DNA of 64,000 nucleotides from Lachnospiraceae bacterium (GTDB lineage: Bacteria > Bacillota > Clostridia > Lachnospirales > Lachnospiraceae). The notes under the pieces are model-generated. The model ran no database searches, was not told where the DNA came from, and saw only the letters and a list, made by a program, of their open reading frames with translations. The DNA lies in NCBI GenBank assembly GCA_900199595.1, contig FZRB01000016.1, positions 1 through 64,000 on the forward strand, given 5' to 3'. This document shows positions 24,549 through 44,259 of the stretch, piece by piece (the first letter of the stretch is position 1; each line of letters opens with the position of its first letter). The position numbers were made by a program, and so were the translations under genes.

Positions 24549-26014
24549 TTATACTAACATAAGTATCTTGTTCTTAAAAGCAAATATGGTTTTTTTTCCT
24601 GAGAATGCTATCCCAAATTTAATGATATCCGCTACACCCTCCTCACGCATTTCTGTGTCATACCCTTTTTTATTGATCTGATCAAGAGCTTCTGCAGATA
24701 AGGCATCCAGTTCCTCATCGTTCAGATCTTTATCCCATTTTAATTCCATGATCATTCCCGGATATTTATTTCCCCTGGGGAACAGGCTGATATCATATCG
24801 TCCGTCGCCGGACTCTCTGTTTGACCTGATCTGATACTGATTATCCATCAAAGCAATAAGCCCAAGAACCAGCCCATGATAAAACCCTTCTGCTCCGGCA
24901 TCATAGAAGCTGATACTCTTCTTTAAGTATTCTCCTATTCCGTCCTGCAGTTTCTTTGTATCCTGTGAAAAAAGACTCTCAGCGATCTTATTGGCTGTAG
25001 CTCTCCCCATTGCGCCGATCTGCATCAGATGCGATAGGATCTCACTCTTATATACTGCAGCTATCTCGCGGTTCGGTATCGAAACCTCACACAGCCATGC
25101 TCCATCGTCCTGAAGTTCCTTCTTTGGTGTCTTCAGATATCCGGATACTAGAAGCAGACTGTATATATTCGCAGGATCTTCTGCAAGCGATCTGTACACC
25201 ACGTTCTGATCGATCCTGGCAATCACACGCTCGCCCTGAAGAAGGGAATACAGTTTCTCAGTGATATCATCCGTTGCCACCTTCAGTACATCTTCCAGTA
25301 CTTCGTTCTTTCCGGTATTCACCCAGTATGCCTGCGGCAGGCATCCTCTTGACAAGTAATTGATCACTGACCACGGGTTATATATTTCCTTGCTCCCGAA
25401 GAAATATCCATCATACCAGTTACGAAGTTCTTCCTCGTTATCGGATGCTCCATAATAAGCAAGCATTTCTCTCACTTCCGATTCAGTGAATCCAAAGAAA
25501 CCATCGTACTCCTCGTCCATCACTGAATTAACAGTAAGATTATATAAACCGCTGAAAATGCTCTCCTGCGCTATCCGAAGTATTCCGGTCAGGAATCCAT
25601 ATGACTGGTTGCTGTTATCCTTGAACGCCCCGGAAAAAAAGTTCCTCATAAATCCGATGATCTCATCATAGAACTCCTTCGAATACCCTTCCTGGATCGG
25701 AGTATCGTACTCATCAATGATGATGATCGGAGCTTTTTTGTAATGAGCTGCAAGCATTTTGGAAAGCTTTTGAAGAGAAGCCGAAAGCTCTACTTCATTC
25801 GCCTGTCCGTTTAATACTTTCTCAAAATAGTCTTTCTCATACTTTTCGAGTTTATCACTGTTTTGTAGTTCAGAATGTCTTCCGAATTCTTCCTGCAGCA
25901 ACCCGGAGATCTTTGCAAAGGTTGCTTCCCAGGAATCATACCTTCCTTGCAGAATTCCGTTACTCTACGCTCCGATATTCCCCATAACGCAGCCATTTGC
26001 TTGCAGGATTTCAT
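24549..26014 (-). pseudogene. AAA-ATPase/PDDEXK gene lacking its Walker A half, fused to an HTH fragment
   Basis: The 3' part (24549-25940) encodes an AAA-ATPase-like domain (IIIIDEYDTPIQ Walker B) and a C-terminal PD-(D/E)XK region (DGRYDISLFPRG, MIMELKWDKD). In-frame homology runs back past the first ATG to GRYDSWEATFAKISGLLQEE, so the annotated ATG is not native, and the first 100 or so residues with Walker A are missing. Upstream, an ATG at 26014 with SD AAGGGGG starts an HTH protein (MKSCKQMAALWGISERRVTE) that runs out of frame into the ATPase near 25940-25965. A deletion joined two genes. Confidence 0.75.
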
Positions 26015-26062
26015 ATGGACATACCCCCTTTTCATCTATCATCTCCTACAGTATAAACATTA

Positions 26063-26101
26063 TTCGGAAGGATATCAATTTACATTTGATATCTTTCCGA
26101 A
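26063..26101. repeat. 16-bp inverted repeat upstream of the HTH fragment
   Basis: TTCGGAAGGATATCAA and TTGATATCTTTCCGAA pair around a 7-base loop with one G-U. No T-run follows on either strand, so it is more like an operator or mobile-element end than a terminator. It lies 49 bp upstream of the HTH fragment's ATG. Confidence 0.6.
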
Positions 26102-26188
26102 CAAAGTCGCCTTATGTACTTCATATCTATCCAATAGACATGAAATGGTTCACACTCCATCCACAACTTTCCCCTTCACAATTAACAA

Positions 26189-26237
26189 GGGCTATGTTAC
26201 CATAGCCCATGAAATATGATGCCACCGCAGCGGCATC
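26189..26237 (-). terminator. Double hairpin downstream of the phosphoesterase gene
   Basis: Two adjacent perfect hairpins: GATGCC/GGCATC (26218-26237) and GGGCTATG-TTAC-CATAGCCC (26189-26208). They lie about 110 bp past the phosphoesterase stop. Only a weak T-rich tail follows, so termination is plausible but not certain. The remainder of 26036-26344 shows no gene. Confidence 0.5.
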
Positions 26238-26344
26238 ACTGCTTTTTGAACGTCCACTTACGGCAGGACTCTCCATCTGTCTTTATTCTAACAAAATCAC
26301 AAGTTTGGTCAAGAGGGGTTTAGAATTTCGTAGTATAAAAATTA

Positions 26345-27289
26345 TTATTCTTCCGCACTATGGTCAAGTACATCCGTCAGGGAAAGATGCTTAAATAATG
26401 TATCACCGCTCATGACATCTATTGATACATGACCGCCCGGATAATGATCTATGATTTCCACTGTGCCATCACGGATCTCATCCTGGTCAGATTCGTGATA
26501 TCTGATTTTGAACTTGACCCGGTCACCTACTTTATAATTCCTGATATCCAATCTGGGATCTGGCTGCTTCTCCGGTTCACCGTTACCATCTGCAAATCCC
26601 CATTGTTTTGAAACAGTATCTACCCAGATAAATCGCTGGTCTCCGATAGGATTCCCATTACGGTATGTTGAAAAATTATCTACAGTAACCAATTCACCAA
26701 AGAAATCTGTTTTCCTAACCGGTGTATGTCCTACCACCTGCAGATATCCCACCGGATACATTTCAATTCTGCCATCCTGTGGTCTTACCCAAATCGGTGA
26801 TGCATCACACCACAGTTCATCTCTTCGGAAGCTGTTGATCTTTTCAAGAAGTTCATCTATATCACCGCCATAATTCGGCAGAAAGTGCGATACAAATATC
26901 TCCGTCAAACCTGCATGGCTGAAAAGAACCTTATCTACTCGATGAATATAAGCGATATTCCCTGCCGGTAAAAGCTTTTCAAGTTTTGATATTCCTTCAA
27001 GCACTACCTGTCTTGCATAATCAGAATACCCTGACTCCCGAGCCTCCCAGATGTAACTCACATCATGGTTTCCGTAGCAAAACAGAAAATTTGGATGTCG
27101 ATTTATAAATCTCTCAAGCGCATCAAATGTCTCCGAATACAATCTCAGGTTCTTTTCCTGATCCCAGTCATCTACGAGATCTCCCAGACAGACGATTTTG
27201 TCATATTCGTTTTGAGAAAGCAGTTCTTCTGCCTTATCAAATATCCAAGGTTTCAGATGCACATCCGGGATTACAAAAACCTTACTCAT
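26345..27289 (-). CDS. Calcineurin-like metallophosphoesterase with an extra C-terminal domain
   Basis: The 314-residue protein has the two-metal phosphoesterase motifs in order: DVH (9-11), GDLVDD (36-41), GNHD (73-76), SHAG (124-127) and GHTP (187-190). After residue about 250 comes an additional beta-rich domain (YKVGDRVKFKIRYHE, DGTVEIIDHYPGGHVSIDVM) of SH3/KOW appearance. It may act on nucleic acid ends or nucleotides. It is the last intact gene of a run that includes an RNA ligase, and related phosphatases prepare RNA ends for ligation, so an RNA-repair role is inferred. Confidence 0.85.
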   Translation of the reverse strand: MSKVFVIPDVHLKPWIFDKAEELLSQNEYDKIVCLGDLVDDWDQEKNLRLYSETFDALERFINRHPNFLFCYGNHDVSYIWEARESGYSDYARQVVLEGISKLEKLLPAGNIAYIHRVDKVLFSHAGLTEIFVSHFLPNYGGDIDELLEKINSFRRDELWCDASPIWVRPQDGRIEMYPVGYLQVVGHTPVRKTDFFGELVTVDNFSTYRNGNPIGDQRFIWVDTVSKQWGFADGNGEPEKQPDPRLDIRNYKVGDRVKFKIRYHESDQDEIRDGTVEIIDHYPGGHVSIDVMSGDTLFKHLSLTDVLDHSAEE

Positions 27290-27325
27290 TACGTTTCATC
27301 TTCCTTTCCACAGCACGATCTATTG

Positions 27326-27475
27326 TCACGCGATGAATACTGAATATATATTTGAAAACAGAGATGTCATCTGATCACTGTCTTCTTCCGTAACTCTCTG
27401 TGATGCAAAAAGATCTATCGTTTCGCTTTCCTTAAAAAGAGGATATCCGGAACAAACAATTCTTAAAAGTCTCAT
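27326..27475 (-). pseudogene. N-terminal stub of an AAA-family ATPase
   Basis: The 49-residue frame reads MRLLRIVCSGYPLFKESETI and later VTEEDSDQMTSLFSNIY, which I recognise as the opening strand region of ATPases whose P-loop follows about 15 residues later. Here the frame breaks after SNIY and stops before any Walker A, so only the stub remains. It sits between the phosphoesterase and the zinc-ribbon protein. The 170 bp upstream (27476-27644) are AT-rich with a partial CGTAATTA/TAATTACG repeat. Confidence 0.6.
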
Positions 27476-27644
27476 ATTTAACCTCGCTTTGTATTATTTA
27501 CATTTTTGGCGTAATTACTCACCGATATTTTATACGACGATGCCTATTATGCCAATCATTAATTACGAGTTTCGCGTAAATAATCGCAAACGCTTTGTTC
27601 TTGTTTATTATAGAAAGCATGCTTGTAAAAGCTGTCAGAGGTAT

Positions 27645-28283
27645 CTATCCAAAAAGTTTCTCTTGTCTTGCGATGATCTTATTTATGGTATCCGAGAAAT
27701 CGCGTTTTTCCTCATAATCTCCGCGATCTGCAGAAAAGTGTTTATATACTGCGATCATGTCAAGCTTCTGCTCTTCCTTCTTAAGATTCTTGTAGGGCGT
27801 ATACTTAAACTCCCGGTCCGGATGATTCTTTTCATGCCATCTTTTTTGTCTTACAATCCTCTTGTTATAGCAATCTTCACACAATGGTTCTACCCATCCT
27901 CCGGTAAGCACCGGTACATTCATACGACCGCATTCGATACAAAAATAACCGGAAATATGATCATATTTAGATTCCAGATCTGACACTTCTCTCGGCGCAG
28001 CATTTGAGTATAGCCTCAATGTTCCGTATTTTTCCTTTACCTGGATCCACTGGAATTGATTGAGATAATTATTTCTGATCAGCACCTCTCTGTATTCTTC
28101 AAGCATGATCTTACCAAAAGCTCTTTTCCATCCCGTCGGAACATCGTCATACATCGTGAAATTATAGCTTTGGATTCTCTTCCAATGCCAGTCCACAGGC
28201 CATATCCATGGATATCGTTCTATCAACTTTTTGTTTCTTAGCCTTTCAGCTTTTCTTTTTTTCGCTTCACCTTTTCTGCTCAT
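27645..28283 (-). CDS. Unknown protein with a zinc-ribbon-like CxxC pair
   Basis: The 212-residue soluble, basic protein starts MSRKGEAKKRKAERLRNKKL. The middle carries CIECGRMNVP and EPLCEDCYNKR (residues about 117-145), a probable zinc ribbon, preceded by WIQVKEKYGTLRLY. I do not recognise a named family; similar proteins occur singly in Firmicute accessory regions. It is 28 bp from the next gene in the RNA-ligase run, so it may be a nucleic-acid-binding partner; this is inference. Confidence 0.65.
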   Translation of the reverse strand: MSRKGEAKKRKAERLRNKKLIERYPWIWPVDWHWKRIQSYNFTMYDDVPTGWKRAFGKIMLEEYREVLIRNNYLNQFQWIQVKEKYGTLRLYSNAAPREVSDLESKYDHISGYFCIECGRMNVPVLTGGWVEPLCEDCYNKRIVRQKRWHEKNHPDREFKYTPYKNLKKEEQKLDMIAVYKHFSADRGDYEEKRDFSDTINKIIARQEKLFG

Positions 28284-28310
28284 ACATAACGCCCCTTGAA
28301 CTTACAAATA

Positions 28311-28976
28311 TCAGTCCCACAAAGAAAAAAAGTATTCCTTCAACATGTCAATTGCCTCGTCCTTGCATTCTTCTCTATATTTTTCAAGCTTATCGTCCTC
28401 TACCCGATGCTTCTCATAGATTTCTTTGTATTCAGGTATTTCATCCATGAAATGGATTGTTCCTCCGCCACCTCTTTTTTTGTTTTCTTCCAGTTCAGCT
28501 TTCGTCTGTAGCTTTTCGCCAAGAAAACCGTACTTTTCATCAAATTCAGAGAACGCATTAATATACTCATCTTCGTACGGATTCTTTTTGGAGCAGGTTT
28601 CTTCGTCGGTTTCCCTCCAAAGAAAAATCATCCGATTGAGTATTTTATCCCATTCGTCATGACAGGTATCATTCATAAGGATCCCATCTTCATTTGTATA
28701 ATTCTCCCCAAAGTAACCCGGTGAACCATGGCGACTATCCTTCAAATGCCGGAACATGTCAGGCATCAGTTCCTGCAAATATGAAAACATACTCCATACA
28801 TCACAATCTGCATACCCTCGGACAACCCTCTGTCTGCTCCATTTCAAGCACCTCCCGAAATGCTTGATCATCGCAATTATCCTACTCTTTTCACCAAGTC
28901 CTGCCATAGCAAATTCGTGACGGTTCCATATGTTTAAGGTACGCTCCGGTAATCTCTTTTTTCGCTTAAAACACAT
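28311..28976 (-). CDS. Unknown protein immediately after the RNA ligase gene
   Basis: The 221-residue soluble protein is rich in charged residues and aromatics. Its N-terminal half has HEFAMAGLGEKSRIIAMIKH and RGYADCDVWSMFSYLQELMP; the C-terminal half is a probable coiled helix (EDDKLEKYREECKDEAIDML). The ATG follows GAGGGATAG, which contains the ligase stop, so the two are translationally linked. I know of no assigned function. The tight coupling is the best clue that it works with the ligase. Confidence 0.65.
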   Translation of the reverse strand: MCFKRKKRLPERTLNIWNRHEFAMAGLGEKSRIIAMIKHFGRCLKWSRQRVVRGYADCDVWSMFSYLQELMPDMFRHLKDSRHGSPGYFGENYTNEDGILMNDTCHDEWDKILNRMIFLWRETDEETCSKKNPYEDEYINAFSEFDEKYGFLGEKLQTKAELEENKKRGGGGTIHFMDEIPEYKEIYEKHRVEDDKLEKYREECKDEAIDMLKEYFFSLWD

Positions 28977-28979
28977 TTA

Positions 28980-30026
28980 CTATCCCTCGTTCTTCAAAAG
29001 GTATTTGTTGCTCACAACCTTCATGGAAAGAGCAGCACTGATTCTTTCATTAAATACCGGTTCCGTTGGACGTATTACAATGCCTTCCTTCTTTCCACCT
29101 TTTGGGTATTCTCCGTCTGCCCTTTCAAGTAATACTTCCACTGTTGGATACTTTGATGGCAGATCCATACCAACCTCTTCAACCGGAACCATCATCAATC
29201 CTAATGAGTCACAGATTTCCTGCATCTTACGAAGTCCTACTCTCTCTCCATTGATACGTATCGTAAACACATACCATTCAGGTCTTGTCAGCTTCAATCT
29301 GTTCTGTTGGATTCCCGGAGCACACAGTTCTCCTTGTATGGTCAGTAAGTGCAGGCCGTTTTCCTCATAATACTTCCGAAGCTTGCTTTCAATATCCTCA
29401 CGCTTAACCAGATCATAAAATGCACTCTTACCATCATCCTTGTACTCATAATTATGACCGGTCACATGGAAGCCGTCCTCATCTATGGACACTGAATGAG
29501 AAGAACCATCCATCTTTGTAGTGATGTAATACTCCAGGCCTGCAAAATCTCTGATCAGATCCGGTTCAGCCTGAACCCTGGTCTCATCGGTATGCGGCAC
29601 ATCGATTGGAAGTGTTCCAATCACAGTTCCGCCGGTAGTCACCTTCTCCTCAATTTCCCACTTACGTACTCCAAGGATTTCTGTTACATCTGCTCCGAGT
29701 TCAATATCTACAGGCAACTCTGGAAACTGATTGATGGGAAGCAATAGTCCCTGTGATATCTGTCCCCGGAATTTCATGGTCCGAAGTCTGAATCCTTCTC
29801 CCATAATATCCGTCTTTCGATAGCTGGATGCTCTCATAAACTCAAACTCCGGACGAATCGGCAGGAAGCTGTCTATCTCAAAATACACCGCCAGATCCAT
29901 GGGTTTGAATTGCCCCTTGTTTACTACACACTGCCATCCGAGAACGTGTGCCAACTCTATTCTATCTGCTCCTTCTATCGGTTCTACTTTCCATATTCTC
30001 TGTATGCTTGCAAGTTTTCTGCTCAT
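28980..30026 (-). CDS. RNA ligase, DRB0094 family (Rnl5-like)
   Basis: The 348-residue covalent nucleotidyltransferase has motif I KMDGSS with the adenylated Lys171, motif III-like GELCAPG (232-238), motif IV EGIVIRP (314-320) and motif V SMKVVSNKYL (334-343). The N-terminal 100 residues (ADRIELAHVLGWQCVVNKGQ) form the OB-like domain typical of the Deinococcus DRB0094 group. Such enzymes seal 3'-OH/5'-PO4 nicks in RNA bridged by DNA or RNA. All key lysines are present. Its ATG overlaps the stop of a 45-codon ORF. Neighbours suggest an RNA-repair set. Confidence 0.92.
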   Translation of the reverse strand: MSRKLASIQRIWKVEPIEGADRIELAHVLGWQCVVNKGQFKPMDLAVYFEIDSFLPIRPEFEFMRASSYRKTDIMGEGFRLRTMKFRGQISQGLLLPINQFPELPVDIELGADVTEILGVRKWEIEEKVTTGGTVIGTLPIDVPHTDETRVQAEPDLIRDFAGLEYYITTKMDGSSHSVSIDEDGFHVTGHNYEYKDDGKSAFYDLVKREDIESKLRKYYEENGLHLLTIQGELCAPGIQQNRLKLTRPEWYVFTIRINGERVGLRKMQEICDSLGLMMVPVEEVGMDLPSKYPTVEVLLERADGEYPKGGKKEGIVIRPTEPVFNERISAALSMKVVSNKYLLKNEG

Positions 30027-30160
30027 AATTCTATTCCTTTCACTATCTTATAATGTCCAAACATTTTCATCATATCGTCAATGCCGGATACGATGCCGAG
30101 CGCTTTGGCTCCATTTTCTTTGACCTGTGGTAAAAGCGGCTTCTCTATATCGTATTTCAA
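30023..30160 (-). CDS. Small ORF coupled to the RNA ligase (45 aa)
   Basis: A TTG at 30160, with AGAGGATGG upstream, opens a 45-residue frame containing KPLLPQVKENGAKALGIVSG and ending FGHYKIVKGIEL. Its TGA overlaps the ligase ATG. There is no ATG alternative before MMKMF. The sequence looks like real protein and could be a small partner, or the tail of a truncated gene whose start was lost next to the broken XRE gene. Confidence 0.45.
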   Translation of the reverse strand: MKYDIEKPLLPQVKENGAKALGIVSGIDDMMKMFGHYKIVKGIEL

Positions 30161-30181
30161 ATAAAGTAACCATCCTCTTTC

Positions 30182-30502
30182 TTATGCGGCTCGCAGTTGC
30201 TTGATTCTTTCATAATAAACGTAGATACGAGCACAAGCCGGATCGCAGAATGGTACATACACAAACTTCCTGTTACCTCGCATTATTGCATCTACAGGCA
30301 TACGAAAAAGTTCACTGAGTGCATATATGTTGTCCAAAGTAGGCATTGTCATTCCGTCAAACTAGTGATAGATTCCCTGGGGTGTACTGAATCCCAGAAA
30401 GTTCTGTACATCTTTTACCGAAAGTCCCTTTGCCTGCATTATACGTTTGATATTCTGTCCAGTCCGGAGCATATCTATAAACGGATATTTTCTTCTCATC
30501 AT
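30182..30502 (-). pseudogene. XRE-type HTH protein interrupted by an in-frame amber codon
   Basis: The frame from ATG 30502 reads an HTH protein: IKRIMQAKGLSVKDVQNFLG, FSTPQGIYH, then TAG at 30364-30362, then FDGMTMPTLDNIYALSELFR and MPVDAIMRGN to a TAA at 30182. The expected residue is Trp (YHWFDG in relatives), so a single TGG-to-TAG change explains it. Total length is 106 codons. It may be inactive, or produce only the 46-residue HTH part. It lies upstream of the RNA-ligase run on the same strand. Confidence 0.8.
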
Positions 30503-30605
30503 TTATTTACTCCTTATATAATCCTTCTTAAAATAACACTTCACGTTATTATAATATCTGCCGTTCTGGTTGTCATTATACGTGTAGTATAAAACCACGC
30601 TGTAT

Positions 30606-31530: not shown

Positions 31531-31975
31531 TTTCGTATCCTCCACTAATCTTTATATATTTGCGCGATTCAAACGCTTTGATTTATCTTGTGCCATATCG
31601 CTTTCAGCGATATGCAATCCTTCCTATGGAAGTCTTGGTTCTGCTTTGCAGAACGCATCCTCGTTTCACTCGGACCACCGATTACTTTGTAATCGGTAGC
31701 TTCGATGATTGGATAATACACCAAGCCGAGGATACATATATCAAATCTGGTGCGAATGGGATAAAAGTTGTTGTAAATGGTATTTATATTATTTTAGGCA
31801 AAAAATATTGAAAAGGTATTCCTATAACACTGCCATGTTCGCACCTCCATTTTCTTTCTTGGAGGTTAGGCTTGCCGGCTTACGTCACCTCTTGCTTACA
31901 CATGCAATTCTACGGAACTCTATGTAAAAAGTCGTTCCACAGGATTTCGAACTTTCGGTTCGAAAATATCGAACA
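31531..31975. repeat. Gene-free stretch with five short perfect hairpins
   Basis: Hairpins with 3-9 base loops occur at 31594-31614, 31638-31654 (GTTCTGC-TTT-GCAGAAC), 31677-31697 (ACCGATTAC-TTT-GTAATCGGT), 31843-31866 (ACCTCCA/TGGAGGT) and 31945-31965 (TTTCGAAC-N5-GTTCGAAA). On the minus strand GGAGGTGCGAACATGGCAGT is a strong SD plus ATG that opens only MAVL and a stop. I recall similar sequence in Firmicutes near holin-like type I toxin genes, so this may be a decayed toxin-antitoxin RNA locus. No protein-coding gene is visible. Confidence 0.45.
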
Positions 31976-32006
31976 TAAAAAAGACGCCTGCATTCTCTGC
32001 AAGCGC
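31976..32006 (-). terminator. Terminator of the AAA/DUF4143 gene
   Basis: On the minus strand GCGCTTGC, AGAGAAT loop, GCAGGCGTC, then TTTTTTATG. It lies 55 bp beyond the stop at 32061. Confidence 0.8.
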
Positions 32007-32060
32007 CCATCCATGCAATCCTAATATAACAGTTCTTCAATGCTATAATGTCACAACCTT

Positions 32061-33401
32061 TTATAAAAACGGTACCATGTATACCGGGATATAACTAATA
32101 CCATTTTCCCTCTTATAATCTTTCGTATGAACAACGTATTTTTCGCATATACGACTCCTGAATTTATCACAAAACACATCCAACGACTTATGTCCTCTGT
32201 AATTTCCCGACTTCACCTCTATAGGACAAATCTTGTTTCCCACCGAAGTCAGAAAATCTATCTCATACAAATGATTTGATGAATCACTTTCCATCGTGTA
32301 ATAGAACAGATTATCACCTTTGGCAACAAGCATCTGGGCAACGACATTTTCATAGACATAGCCCAAATTGGCTTCAAGTTTATCGGAAAGCAACTTATTA
32401 TAAATTGTATTCTCGGTATAATTCTTATCCCTGAACGCAAGCGTCACAAACAAACCTACATCGGAAGTAAACAATTTATATCTGCCCGCGTCCTTCTCTA
32501 ACGCCATACCGACTCCGGGATTATTTGCGTGATACGCTATATTGACCGTGTAAGAAGAAAGCATATCCGGCAACAGATCACGTACCTGTCCGGAACGTGT
32601 GCCTTCTCTCGCGCTTGATAATACATATCTCGAAGCATTGCCGCTTAAGTTTGCGGGTATCGCATCATATATGTCCCCCGCCAAACCGGAAGGATCGATT
32701 TTTGTAAAATCTTCTTCGTAAAGATCTACTATGTCTCTTTTGATCTCATCTACCGCCTGCAGATTATTCTGTTCTAAATATGTTTCTATGGCCTGAGGCA
32801 TTCCTCCGATCAGCATATATAATCTAAATGTCCGCATGAGACTCCTGTGGACAGAATTCCCCGCAGGTCTCTTTTTCTCCATAAGCATTTTGATCGTCCC
32901 GGTAGAAACCTCATCACCGATTGCCCACAAAAATTCCTCAAAATCCATCGGATACATAGATATTTTATGTTCTTCGCTTGGGATCAGAATATCCTTCATA
33001 TTCTTCCTGATTGATATAAGTGACCCTGTCTCAATGTATTTATATCTGCCATCGGCTACGAGATACTTTATTGCCTGCCTTGCCTTGGGAAGCAACTGGA
33101 CTTCATCAAAAATGATCACAGATTCTTTCTCAAATAATCTTGTTCCGGTCAATTGCTGCAACTGTAAAAAGAAGAAATCCAGATCATAAGTATCATCAAA
33201 TAAGTCCTTGATTGCCTTGCTGGTATGGGCAAAATCAATCATGATGTATGATTTAAACTCTTTTTTAGCGAATTCTTCCGCTATAGTCGATTTACCGACT
33301 CGTCTCGCTCCCTTAATCAGCAATGCGTACTTATCACTTCGATTTTCCTTCCATTCAAGAATCTCGCTATAGATTTTCCTTCTAAATACCGGTTTTTCCA
33401 T
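32061..33401 (-). CDS. AAA_14/DUF4143 ATP-binding protein
   Basis: The 446-residue protein has Walker A GARRVGKST (near residue 31), Walker B VIIFDEVQ (near 94-101) and sensor region IETGSLISIR. The C-terminal DUF4143 domain holds a PD-(D/E)XK-like core (YEIDFLTSVGNKICPIEVKSG). This family is widespread in anaerobes, often in accessory regions; its activity is not well established. The gene is under a promoter covered by three direct repeats, so it is tightly regulated. All key motifs are intact. Confidence 0.88.
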   Translation of the reverse strand: MEKPVFRRKIYSEILEWKENRSDKYALLIKGARRVGKSTIAEEFAKKEFKSYIMIDFAHTSKAIKDLFDDTYDLDFFFLQLQQLTGTRLFEKESVIIFDEVQLLPKARQAIKYLVADGRYKYIETGSLISIRKNMKDILIPSEEHKISMYPMDFEEFLWAIGDEVSTGTIKMLMEKKRPAGNSVHRSLMRTFRLYMLIGGMPQAIETYLEQNNLQAVDEIKRDIVDLYEEDFTKIDPSGLAGDIYDAIPANLSGNASRYVLSSAREGTRSGQVRDLLPDMLSSYTVNIAYHANNPGVGMALEKDAGRYKLFTSDVGLFVTLAFRDKNYTENTIYNKLLSDKLEANLGYVYENVVAQMLVAKGDNLFYYTMESDSSNHLYEIDFLTSVGNKICPIEVKSGNYRGHKSLDVFCDKFRSRICEKYVVHTKDYKRENGISYIPVYMVPFL

Positions 33402-33424
33402 ACTTCATCCGTCCTTTCAAACCG

Positions 33425-33512
33425 AGTATAACGCAAATCCCCATTCGTGTAAATACAATTTTAACGCAAATCCCCATTCATTTTTTTTGGATTTTTACTC
33501 AAATCCCCGTTC
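33425..33512 (-). promoter_or_regulatory. Promoter with three direct operator repeats for the AAA/DUF4143 gene
   Basis: TAACGCAAATCCCCATTC occurs at 33429-33446 and 33462-33479 (33-bp period), with a diverged third copy at 33496-33512. On the minus strand TTTACA (33453-33448), 17 bp and TATACT (33430-33425) form the promoter; the first repeat fills its spacer and part of the -10 box. Three helical turns between copies suggest cooperative repressor binding. Confidence 0.75.
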
Positions 33513-33542
33513 AGTTGACTCCGGCTGCCATAGGGTTCAGCA

Positions 33543-34981: not shown

Positions 34982-35959
34982 TCACCACTTCTTTTTCTTA
35001 TCAAACGAACTGAAATCCGGAACCATATACTGTGGATTTACATTTGCTCTGACCACACCATTTCCCAAATCTTCACTTACTTCTATTGGTGCACCTTCCG
35101 GAATGATTTTATCAACATACATGTCGAGTATAGTGAACACATCTACTTTATCGTGGTCTTCTACGATTGCCTTCGATGGATAATTCCCTTCGAAGTAATA
35201 CAGTATCTTCATCTGAAGACTATCAAGATTCTTTATAACACTTCCGATAATCTCTTCTGGGACTCCATAATATGCTTCTGCTATAGATCCGGTTATTGCC
35301 CCGATAGTATCACTGTCTCCTCCAACAGAGATTGCATTTCTGATTGCATCCTCAAAACTTGTTGATTCAAAGAAAGCTTCAAATGCCACTGGAACTGATC
35401 CCTGACAAGATACATCAAACTCATATCCATCTCTGATCTCATCCAGAGTAAAATCTATCTTGTAATAGTTCTCTGTTATATGCTTCCTTATCTTGTCCAT
35501 ACTCTTTCCTTTTCTTGCAAGGAATATAGCTACTGCTACGGCTTCTGCTCCCTTCATCCCCTCAGGATGATTATGCGTCACCTCTGTAACTTTGGCAGAG
35601 AGTTCCTTAGCTTCCTTAATACTCTTTGCAGCATATCCGCAGGCACTTACTCTCATAGCAGATCCATTTCCATAACTGTTATATGGTTTAGGATTCTTAG
35701 ACATTATCCACTTGATAAAATTGCCGCCATATCCTGCCTTTATGTATATCTTTCCCAAGCCCTGCATATTCTCTATAGCCTTTGCGGAAAGATCTGAATA
35801 ATCCCCTTCACACTGCATAATTGATAAAGCTATCGCAAGACTCATAACACTGTCATCAGTCACATGACACTTTCTTTTAAATAGATCAAAATCTTTTGAC
35901 TTATGGTTATGCCATTCAAATCTTGAACCTACTACATCACCTATAATTGCTCCTATCAT
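34982..35959 (-). CDS. ADP-ribosylglycohydrolase (DraG/ARH family)
   Basis: The 325-residue all-helical hydrolase has the metal-binding motifs: GAIIGDVVGSRFEW at the N-terminus, TDDSVMSLAIAL near residue 35, and GGDSDTIGAITGSIAEAYYG near 230, the conserved D-x-D pair that binds two Mg ions. It removes ADP-ribose from modified proteins or small ligands. The SD AAGGAGGG is strong. A macro-domain gene, another ADP-ribose-handling fold, lies just upstream, so the region can reverse ADP-ribosylation in two ways; no transferase is visible here. Confidence 0.9.
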   Translation of the reverse strand: MIGAIIGDVVGSRFEWHNHKSKDFDLFKRKCHVTDDSVMSLAIALSIMQCEGDYSDLSAKAIENMQGLGKIYIKAGYGGNFIKWIMSKNPKPYNSYGNGSAMRVSACGYAAKSIKEAKELSAKVTEVTHNHPEGMKGAEAVAVAIFLARKGKSMDKIRKHITENYYKIDFTLDEIRDGYEFDVSCQGSVPVAFEAFFESTSFEDAIRNAISVGGDSDTIGAITGSIAEAYYGVPEEIIGSVIKNLDSLQMKILYYFEGNYPSKAIVEDHDKVDVFTILDMYVDKIIPEGAPIEVSEDLGNGVVRANVNPQYMVPDFSSFDKKKKW

Positions 35960-36222: not shown

Positions 36223-37338
36223 TCAATCACCCAAAGTCTCTTCTCCATGTTCAAACAGAGAAAGATTAATGGTCTGAACATCATAGATTCCACGTATCAC
36301 ATAATATTCTATTATCTTGTCAAATGTACTGCTTGGCGAGAATGCTATCCCCGCTCTCTTCAAGAGATCAACCATAGTATCATAATCCAGTTCAAGAGCA
36401 AGTGCCAATGCAACAGCCGTTTTCTTCTTTGGTTTATACTCCGGCGTACATCTTATTTTGGAAAATAGTTTCCGGTCAATATTTGCCTTCTTATAAACCT
36501 CTGGATCTGTCATACCACTTTCATCAATAAGTTCAAGAAGTCTTTTCTGATACGTTTTCTTATCTCCGGCTATAATATTCTCAAGGTCATCTGTTCTATC
36601 TCTCGAAGAATCACTAGAAGATCCATGATGAATCCTAGAAGTATTGAATATACTATGATACTTTTCAGAATTCTTTAATCTTATACTACTAAGATACTTC
36701 TTTATCTCTTCCTTTCCAGACAGACGCGAGATATTCTCCAGTACTTTTGCTCTGTCACTCTTATCAACATACTCTAGAAATGCCGAATATTCACTACTCT
36801 GACTATCCATTACAGCAGTATTATCGATATAACTATCTACATCTGCAAATATCCTGCCGGAAAGCTCAAAGGATTTCTCATCGAACACTACAATATATAC
36901 TGTCATATCGTGTTCATACAGGAATTCTGTGATAGAACTCATAGCCACCTGCAAAGCTTTATCCTTTGGAAACATATATGCACCAGAAGATATTAGTGGA
37001 AAAGCAATAGTTTCACACTTTAGCTCTGCAGCCTTCTCCAGCGACTTAATATAGCAGGATTTAAGTAATTCCAACTCCCTACGATTCCCACCAAACCATA
37101 TAGGTCCTACTGTATGGATAATATATTTAGCATTCAAATTAAATGCAGGAGTTACTGCTATATCTCCGACACTAATACTTCCTATTTTCTTTCGCTCAAC
37201 CAGAAGCTCATCAATACCAGCAGCGTTATATATAGCATGAGCAGTCCCGGTGCCATACTTAGGTTTTGGATTGGCGGAGTTGACAATGATATCAGCTGAG
37301 ACTTTTGTTATATCATTACGGATAATCTTTAATGGCAT
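36223..37338 (-). CDS. Macro-domain protein with a C-terminal helical/HTH-like region
   Basis: In this 371-residue protein, residues 1-165 form an Appr-1''-p/macro domain: NDITKVSADIIVNSANPK, the glycine-rich TGTAHAIYNAAG and FPLISSGAYMFPKDKAL. A linker rich in Ser/Asp (about 235-260) leads to a helical C-terminal domain (LLELIDESGMTDPEVYKKAN, TAVALALALELDYDTMVDLL) resembling the HTH-like tails fused to some bacterial macro proteins. Macro domains bind or hydrolyse ADP-ribose. The start at 37338 is supported by GTGAGGAAG. TATAAT at 37385-37380 is its likely -10. Confidence 0.88.
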   Translation of the reverse strand: MPLKIIRNDITKVSADIIVNSANPKPKYGTGTAHAIYNAAGIDELLVERKKIGSISVGDIAVTPAFNLNAKYIIHTVGPIWFGGNRRELELLKSCYIKSLEKAAELKCETIAFPLISSGAYMFPKDKALQVAMSSITEFLYEHDMTVYIVVFDEKSFELSGRIFADVDSYIDNTAVMDSQSSEYSAFLEYVDKSDRAKVLENISRLSGKEEIKKYLSSIRLKNSEKYHSIFNTSRIHHGSSSDSSRDRTDDLENIIAGDKKTYQKRLLELIDESGMTDPEVYKKANIDRKLFSKIRCTPEYKPKKKTAVALALALELDYDTMVDLLKRAGIAFSPSSTFDKIIEYYVIRGIYDVQTINLSLFEHGEETLGD

Positions 37339-37428
37339 ATTCTTCCTCACAATCAACATATCTTATTGCGCTCAAATGTATTATACCATAGCAATAATCT
37401 CTTCACTAATATGTTATCACAGACAATT

Positions 37429-43864: not shown

Positions 43865-44155
43865 GTTCTCCTTTCATGGATATACATGGTTTATGAGGAT
43901 TTGTAGTAATCTTATACACAATCCACATTATTCGTAATGATTCAAAATGCATTCACTACGTCTTTGTAGTAATCTAAAACGCATTCATGAAGCTCGCGCT
44001 TCGCGCTCTACTGTCTGCTTACGCAGACGCTTCATTTCATGCATTTTCGATTCCTGCTTCGCAGGTACGCTGATTTTGCCACAAAGCGTCCTTGTGAGCA
44101 AGCTCCCAGTCCGCTTTTTGTCAATCTCAGCTACTACAAATACTAATTCCCTTTT
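43865..44155. other. Intergenic region downstream of tRNA-Leu with short hairpins
   Basis: Several compact hairpins share small TTC/TTAC-type loops: CGCG-CTT-CGCG (near 43996-44006), GTCTGC-TTAC-GCAGAC (44013-44028), CCTGC-TTC-GCAGG (44053-44065). A TTTGTAGTAATCT motif occurs near 43899 and 43964. No ORF with an SD is present. It could be a structured trailer of the tRNA transcript or a small repeat cluster. Confidence 0.45.
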
Positions 44156-44240
44156 TGCAGATGACGGGACTCGAACCCGAACCCACGTAATGTGGACATG
44201 AACCTGAATCATGCGCGTATACCAATTCCGCCACATCTGC
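44156..44240 (-). tRNA. tRNA-Leu (anticodon CAG)
   Basis: The 85-nt class II tRNA has acceptor GCAGATG/CATCTGC, anticodon stem CATGA/TCATG with loop TTCAGGT (anticodon CAG, reads CUG), a long variable arm (CCAC...GTGG) and TPsiC arm CGGG-TTCGAGT-CCCG. The 3' CCA is not encoded. A strong promoter lies upstream (44260-44288). Confidence 0.95.
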
Positions 44241-44259
44241 ATATTATAGCCACTGAACG

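Follow-up and report, generated by a model that had tools for sequence, protein, structure and literature searches.

RNA repair systems of the Pnkp-Hen1 kind rest on the healing of broken RNA ends and their sealing, and in Pnkp1-Rnl-Hen1 the ligase is, according to the available part of the source, a separate protein, so that a split between healing and sealing is already known (PMC4411300). For phages, the accessible text of one report describes RNA-repair neighbourhoods with a T4-like ligase, an occasional calcineurin-like phosphoesterase and NAD-linked genes (PMC9503650), and the accessible text of another describes repair sets to which phosphoesterases are added for the 3' ends and kinases for the 5' ends (PMC7824862). 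Here, we analysed a 64,000-nucleotide stretch of a Lachnospiraceae genome (assembly GCA_900199595.1, contig FZRB01000016.1, positions 1 to 64,000; the window), in which four intact genes lie on the minus strand between positions 26345 and 30026. They code for an RNA ligase, a protein of 221 amino acids (U221), a protein with CxxC motifs (CxxC protein) and the long form of a calcineurin-like metallophosphoesterase (MPE; this family is termed MPEa). The original prediction, made from the window alone, had grouped them into one candidate RNA-repair module. We find that they are two units, the ligase, U221 and CxxC genes on the one hand and a separate MPE on the other hand, and we tentatively favour the reading, with a probability of about 0.42, that a captured phage-type RNA-sealing operon repairs cleaved RNA and is served by whichever MPE lies nearby.

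Judged by its sequence, the ligase is an RNA ligase of the DRB0094/NgrRnl (Rnl5) type, complete as originally described, and is predicted to seal, with ATP, RNA that has 3'-OH and 5'-phosphate ends, which ligases of this fold require. It contains a PHA02142 OB domain and an RNA_ligase domain, both above the Pfam cut-offs (PF21189, 126 bits; PF09414, 62.4 bits; cut-off 27 for each), and aligns over its full length to the solved NgrRnl structure (5cot_A, E 7.8e-50). Residues K171, D173, G174, E233, E314 and K336 are invariant among nine aligned sequences. The N-terminal OB domain, the ligase domain, the KxDG lysine and the conserved motifs of Rnl5-type enzymes are thus present. The match to TIGR02306 likewise covers the whole length (E 2e-42, 145.3 bits), but does not reach the equivalog cut-off of 151.15. 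The ligase is the sole PF09414 match in its own genome.

The ligase, U221 and CxxC genes form a tight run with gaps of 3 and 27 nt, respectively, whereas MPEa lies outside this run, 355 nt from the CxxC gene (Table 1). As U221 starts 3 nt after the ligase, the claimed translational coupling of these two genes is plausible, but the same claim for a 45-codon open reading frame (ORF) upstream of the ligase did not hold, as this ORF is a relic. The block of three genes is present as a whole in genomes G004, G079 and G206 and in locus L022 (L and G numbers denote the loci and genomes of the comparison set; G000 is the genome of the window, and L021 comes from G079). On the 3.1-kb contig of L018, the ligase is nearly lost, and U221 and CxxC genes are still present. 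The ratio of nonsynonymous to synonymous substitution rates (dN/dS) between the window and its relatives is 0.04-0.08 for the ligase (6 comparisons), 0.13-0.34 for U221 (7), 0.15-0.21 for the CxxC protein (4) and 0.08-0.14 for MPEa (4), with 6 further comparisons dropped due to saturated dS. These values, well below 1, indicate purifying selection, so that all four genes are real and were kept for function.

Gene neighbourhoods, defined as the sequence within 5 kb, were surveyed in 299 genomes of the family. Two further phosphoesterase families, MPEb and MPEc, were met beside the ligase. The ligase was found in 14 genomes, U221 in 12, the CxxC protein in 7, MPEa in 34, MPEb in 83 and MPEc in 61; the MPEb count is low, since the query missed diverged copies beside the ligase in G004, G079, G193 and G234. 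Of the 14 ligase places, 8 have a member of any of the three MPE families nearby, as compared to 0.08 expected under random placement in the genome, an expectation that takes no account of cargo hot spots, from which part of the excess could stem. Counted by partner, U221 is found near 7 of these places, the CxxC protein near 6, MPEa and MPEc near 4 each and MPEb near 1. With the near-identical block carriers G000, G004, G079, G120 and G206 counted once, an MPE is near the ligase in 6 of 10 cases (hand count). The direct same-strand neighbour of the ligase is an MPE in five loci: MPEb in G079, MPEc in G193 (overlapping), G194 (with a very divergent ligase) and G288, and MPEa in G234, in a row that reads helix-turn-helix (HTH) gene, ligase, MPEa and MPEb. 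The tightest partner is the CxxC protein, which has a ligase nearby in 6 of its 7 places, while U221 has one in 7 of its 13 places and lacks one in the remaining 6. At the level of genomes, again with near-identical carriers collapsed, joint occurrence with the ligase is in excess for the CxxC protein (p 1e-4), U221 (p 0.0014), MPEc (p 0.007) and MPEa (p 0.015). The link between ligase and phosphoesterase genes across genomes is thus real, and the association in relatives on which the original prediction depended was found. What did not stand is a fixed set of four genes, as the MPE of the window is a separate unit beside remains of an AbiLi-like system, other ligase loci have MPEs of other families or none within 5 kb, and the distribution of U221 does not support such a module either.

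Table 1. Position of the genes, relics and putative regulatory sites within the window and evidence for their assignment.
Feature	Coordinates	Strand	Evidence
RNA ligase, DRB0094/NgrRnl kind, 348 aa, catalytic K171 in KMDG	28980..30026	-	Pfam, NgrRnl match, motifs
U221, mostly helical, family also on viral contigs	28311..28976	-	phrog_11543, AlphaFold2 model
CxxC protein, 212 aa, two CxxC pairs (likely zinc site)	27645..28283	-	invariant cysteines
Calcineurin-like metallophosphoesterase MPEa, long form, 314 aa	26345..27289	-	PF00149, metal-site residues
AbiLi-like AAA ATPase relic, 49 codons	27326..27475	-	95% identity, residues 1-44, to L021:9502-9633
Palindrome-like operator motif pair	27493-27519 and 27558-27584	minus (promoter-like site 27555-27527)	motif pattern derived from the same sequences
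C-terminal relic of an upstream gene, 45 codons	30023..30160	-	match to L091 gene; not a gene here
HTH regulator gene with in-frame stop	30182..30502	-	relatives L016, L019, L020 and L022 have versions of 105-127 aa

MPEa matches PF00149 with 45.4 bits (cut-off 21.5), and its metal-site residues D9, H11, D37, N74, H75, D76, H125, H188 and D204 are invariant in 16 aligned sequences; RNA ends are its proposed substrate. The extra domain that had been reported for the phosphoesterase was confirmed as a C-terminal extension of approximately 70 residues, which the 16-row alignment shows in the long relatives from L021, L022, L098 and L100 and not in the shorter ones, although no Pfam family covers it. 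No NCBIfam model reached its cut-off with MPEa and TIGR04075 was not among the matches at E <=1, a phmmer search of the PDB gave no match and the best profile match was to a cold-active phosphatase (E 0.029), and among the PADLOC models only PDC-S60 was matched (E 0.0011, 54 of 314 residues). The ligase, U221, the CxxC protein and the 45-codon ORF had no PADLOC match at E values up to 1. The MPEa copy of G004 is broken. Tandem pairs of MPEb genes were seen at L079:12154-13406, L099:4269-5460 and L111:7421-8546, and the pairs of L099 and L111 adjoin MPEa and AbiEi-type genes, without a ligase.

One operon of four genes was rejected as far as MPEa is concerned, in view of the 355-nt gap before it, the AbiLi-like relic and the pair of operator-like motifs. 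The intact form of the AbiLi-like ATPase has 385 amino acids (L021:9502-10659 in G079), with matches to AAA_21 and to the PADLOC model AbiLi (E 3e-34), and in G079 this gene and a small gene (178 aa, without PADLOC match) separate the CxxC gene from the MPE. Comparison of the DNA with that of G079 (L090) revealed one sharp junction at 27344/27345, with G079 carrying 1.6 kb more. The operator motifs, which flank a promoter-like site ahead of the relic, are 65 bp apart, the pair also occurs in L016, L021 and L022, and a copy with three mismatches precedes a second AbiLi-like gene of G004 (L087:2033). A promoter scan of the region gave 17 sites as compared to 11.8 in shuffled sequences, so that the promoter by itself is weak evidence. 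We infer that the motifs belong to the AbiLi-like system and that MPEa came under its promoter by deletion. The claim of defence-type genes in the vicinity was correct, as the window holds the AbiLi-like relic and, at 32061-33401, a gene with a match (E 1e-100) to PDC-S01, a candidate family of PADLOC.

The 45-codon ORF had been taken for a gene coupled to the ligase, which is ruled out by its match to a 234-aa gene that is intact in G135 (L091:7986-8690; residues 2-36 of the ORF match its C-terminus, 31 of 35 identical by hand count) and by shorter relics of the same gene ahead of the ligase in L016, L019 and L020. Its stop codon is changed in the window, and the ORF therefore runs into the ligase start. 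The 234-aa protein is cysteine-rich, and of the NCBIfam models it matches flagellin lysine methylase best, with a score below cut-off. A stretch of 93-95 bp, which is not present in the window, lies ahead of the ligase in G004, G079, G135, G193 and G206. It is nearly identical across genomes (L016:6714-6806, L020:6750-6844, L080:13149-13243, L091:7874-7959) and, when G193 and G004 are compared, exceeds even the ligase in conservation; the 95-bp version was found in 4 of 200 genomes searched, all 4 of them ligase carriers. A structured RNA or ribozyme was rejected, since no Rfam family fits and the fold z-scores of -1.14, -0.66 and 0.40 are ordinary; in addition, there was no match in phage records and the L021 version looks by eye like coding text. 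The Rfam search gave only a U6 match, below threshold and located elsewhere. In the window, a match to the raiA-hairpin at 31719-31761 is below threshold (27.9 bits, gathering score 43.7).

U221 has a weak match to phrog_11543 (E 3e-5). Its AlphaFold2 model has a predicted local distance difference test score (pLDDT) of 76.5 and resembles solely uncharacterised phage models, with no PDB match at E <0.001 (best 0.43). The CxxC protein had been called zinc-ribbon-like, and its cysteines C115/C118 and C135/C138 are invariant in 12 sequences comprising island copies and viral relatives, which makes a zinc site likely, but membership in a family of NCBIfam, PHROG or Pfam could not be assigned above cut-off. 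Its structural model is of low confidence (pLDDT 62.1), and a structure search with it gave no match. The copy in G135 is broken. Both proteins lie beside the ligase as described, and both families are also known on viral contigs.

Ligase relatives were found in 323 of 50,697 phage records, all with less than 60% identity. IMG/VR contained 429 relatives, and among the best 80 of these, 21 are 67-79% identical; many of these viral samples are presumably of rumen origin. Neither U221, the CxxC protein nor any of the three MPE families was found in the flanks covered for these 21 closest loci, and a block carried as a whole by phages was not seen among the best 80 of the 429 relatives. A ligase tree of 67 rows was rooted at its midpoint, leaving out ORFs of <280 aa, duplicate loci and viral loci after L171. 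Its 16 host rows need 5 label changes, with 4 forced by well supported branches. Eleven of the host rows cluster with a single viral row (L119, possibly itself an island labelled as viral) within a set of 32 rows that is otherwise viral, whereas the neighbours of G288 and G088 are four other rows from viral contigs. By this tree, the host ligases occupy at least two places among the ligases of viral contigs; with a midpoint root, we infer the direction of transfer, from phage to host.

The genomic setting is mosaic. The block follows lysS at a distance of 0.8-2.5 kb in L017, L019, L020 and L022, in the last of these with a Tn916-type integrase gene in between. Tn916-type integrase genes beside lysS were seen at L022:1121-2350 and L099:5438-6649, so that the family seems to have an insertion hot spot behind lysS. 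The lysS gene of the window is separated from the block by 11.7 kb, which hold ParA, macro-domain, ADP-ribosylglycohydrolase, HEAT and AAA_14/DUF4143 genes; in G160, a genome of the same genus considered for an empty site, no lysS orthologue was found (best match 27%). For positions 26000-30600, there was no plasmid match. The AAA_14/DUF4143 ATPase unit at 31934-33522 (PDC-S01) is 99% identical in L019 and L090 despite differing flanks, which indicates a separately moving unit. An ADP-ribosylglycohydrolase gene (34982-35959) and a macro-domain gene (36223-37359) lie upstream of the cassette, and PARG-like genes are close to the ligase in L016 and L080.

In the favoured reading, the ligase, U221 and CxxC genes would form a short, co-transcribed and horizontally spreading phage-type cassette in the cargo region of Lachnospiraceae chromosomes. 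The ligase would seal the 3'-OH and 5'-phosphate ends of cut RNA, most likely of tRNA cleaved by ribotoxins or defence nucleases, and 2',3'-cyclic phosphate or 3'-phosphate ends would be cleaned by any standalone MPE of the same array. In the window this role would fall to MPEa, which is probably transcribed from a promoter that the lost AbiLi-like system left behind. The CxxC protein may be an accessory of the ligase, perhaps one that binds RNA, and U221 may have a part in the joint action. Several findings weigh against this reading, and MPEa of the window is its weakest link, as it is set apart by 355 nt and a relic and is probably transcribed from a promoter of its own. For the pair of ligase and MPEb, joint occurrence in genomes is not in excess (5 against 3.9 expected, p 0.34; p 0.29 in the list with near-identical carriers collapsed), a ligase is near only 9 of 208 MPE places, and MPEb is near MPEa in 6 of 37 and near MPEc in 10 of 75 places, of which only those in G288 and G135 also have a ligase in the vicinity. 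In 6 of the 14 ligase loci, the surrounding 5 kb contain none of the three MPE families (two of these loci are close to a contig end). In the best 80 of 429 viral loci, a sensitive profile search of approximately 6 kb around the ligase found MPEb-like genes 10 times, the CxxC protein once (L181) and U221 once, and neither MPEa nor MPEc. The block proteins include no 5' polynucleotide kinase, for which the genome-wide search covered TIGR04075; the substrate would need a 5'-phosphate or a kinase from another source. Lastly, dS between the window and G079 differs among adjacent genes (ligase 0.43, U221 0.22, CxxC 0.08), which, with the different partners of neighbouring units, indicates that the pieces recombine.

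A serious contender is that the genes are independent phage-type accessory genes without a module, which are neighbours because such genes pile up in mosaic regions. Each of the four protein types is also met on viral contigs, in different surroundings (relatives of U221 on 17, of the CxxC protein on 8 and of MPEa on 5), gene order is variable with relics of other genes in between, the AAA_14 ATPase unit moves separately nearby, and MPEs cluster together mostly without a ligase. Less easily explained in this way are the proximity of ligase and MPE at 8 of 14 places over three MPE families and the five direct same-strand pairs, even if hot spots may contribute, as well as the CxxC protein near the ligase in 6 of 7 places and the cohesion of the three block genes with gaps of 3 and 27 nt. 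As the block holds the sealing part and a plausible accessory, an MPE is often adjacent, and there is no block kinase or Pnkp but RtcB in the genome, we favour RNA repair with exchangeable healing partners. The MPEs could alternatively be hydrolases of nucleotide or ADP-ribose phosphates in counter-signalling, unrelated to RNA ends, with the ligase acting alone. The ADP-ribosylglycohydrolase and macro-domain genes of the window and the PARG-like genes of L016 and L080 would suit such a role, which a review predicts for phage phosphodiesterases in its accessible part (PMC7824862), but the direct pairing in five loci argues against it and we regard it as improbable. Even less probable is a role of the ligase in the maturation or circularisation of RNA, such as phage or host tRNA, in place of damage repair. 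According to the available text of one study, tRNA-processing theta-ribozyme phages show a 140-fold enrichment of this ligase family (PMC10879173), and tRNA genes flank 8 of 30 viral ligase loci. However, the sole tRNA of the window lies at 44155-44241, away from the cassette, and positions 20000-45000 contain no Rfam ribozyme match. Theta ribozymes were also rejected for the viral ligase loci, as none scored above the gathering score in 11 loci, where one group I intron was found.

Compared with known systems, the ligase shares the domain order, the catalytic motifs and a full-length match with DRB0094/NgrRnl (TIGR02306), but is 6 bits under the model cut-off, and its nearest relatives are ligases of viral contigs and islands. 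The phage RNA ligases of phrog_968 are matched over the whole protein (E 4e-72), whereas in the flanks covered for the 21 viral loci that are 67-79% identical, U221, the CxxC protein and the three MPE families were not found. The phage neighbourhoods described in the accessible part of PMC9503650 have a sirtuin, cREC, a kinase and a MazG-type gene, and the block of the window has the CxxC protein and U221 and no kinase. We found no literature on a host-island ligase with interchangeable MPEs and a CxxC partner, in a search that left most subscription journals outside. All four proteins belong to known families, and the arrangement with interchangeable MPEs and the CxxC protein, not met in the literature searched, is the new element. 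The idea of healing and sealing is common to this locus and Pnkp-Hen1 or Pnkp1-Rnl-Hen1; separate genes for the two steps, proposed as a novelty, are predicted here, but such a split is known from Pnkp1-Rnl-Hen1, as far as the accessible text goes (PMC4411300). Unlike Pnkp-Hen1, the block has no kinase, and no TIGR04075 match was found in its own genome, while 14 control genomes gave 9 matches, 1 of them over cut-off. RNA sealing is also shared with RtcB/RtcA repair, whose ligase has an unrelated fold; the genome has RtcB-type matches at two places outside the block (G000:C24:26944-28086 and G000:C6:25748-26797). We consider it unlikely, but worth stating, that the locus represents a distinct type of bacterial RNA-repair operon, in which a captured phage ligase, a dedicated zinc-binding CxxC partner and interchangeable standalone MPEs, recruited independently from three families to heal the ends, would shield Lachnospiraceae, or mobile elements that they carry, against toxins that cleave tRNA and against abortive-infection systems located in the same islands. 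If true, survival after tRNA cleavage would be predicted, two widespread phage protein families, the U221 and CxxC types, would gain a function, and RNA repair in a major gut and rumen family would rest on phage-derived ligases and exchangeable phosphoesterases, unlike in the Pnkp-Hen1 and Rtc systems.

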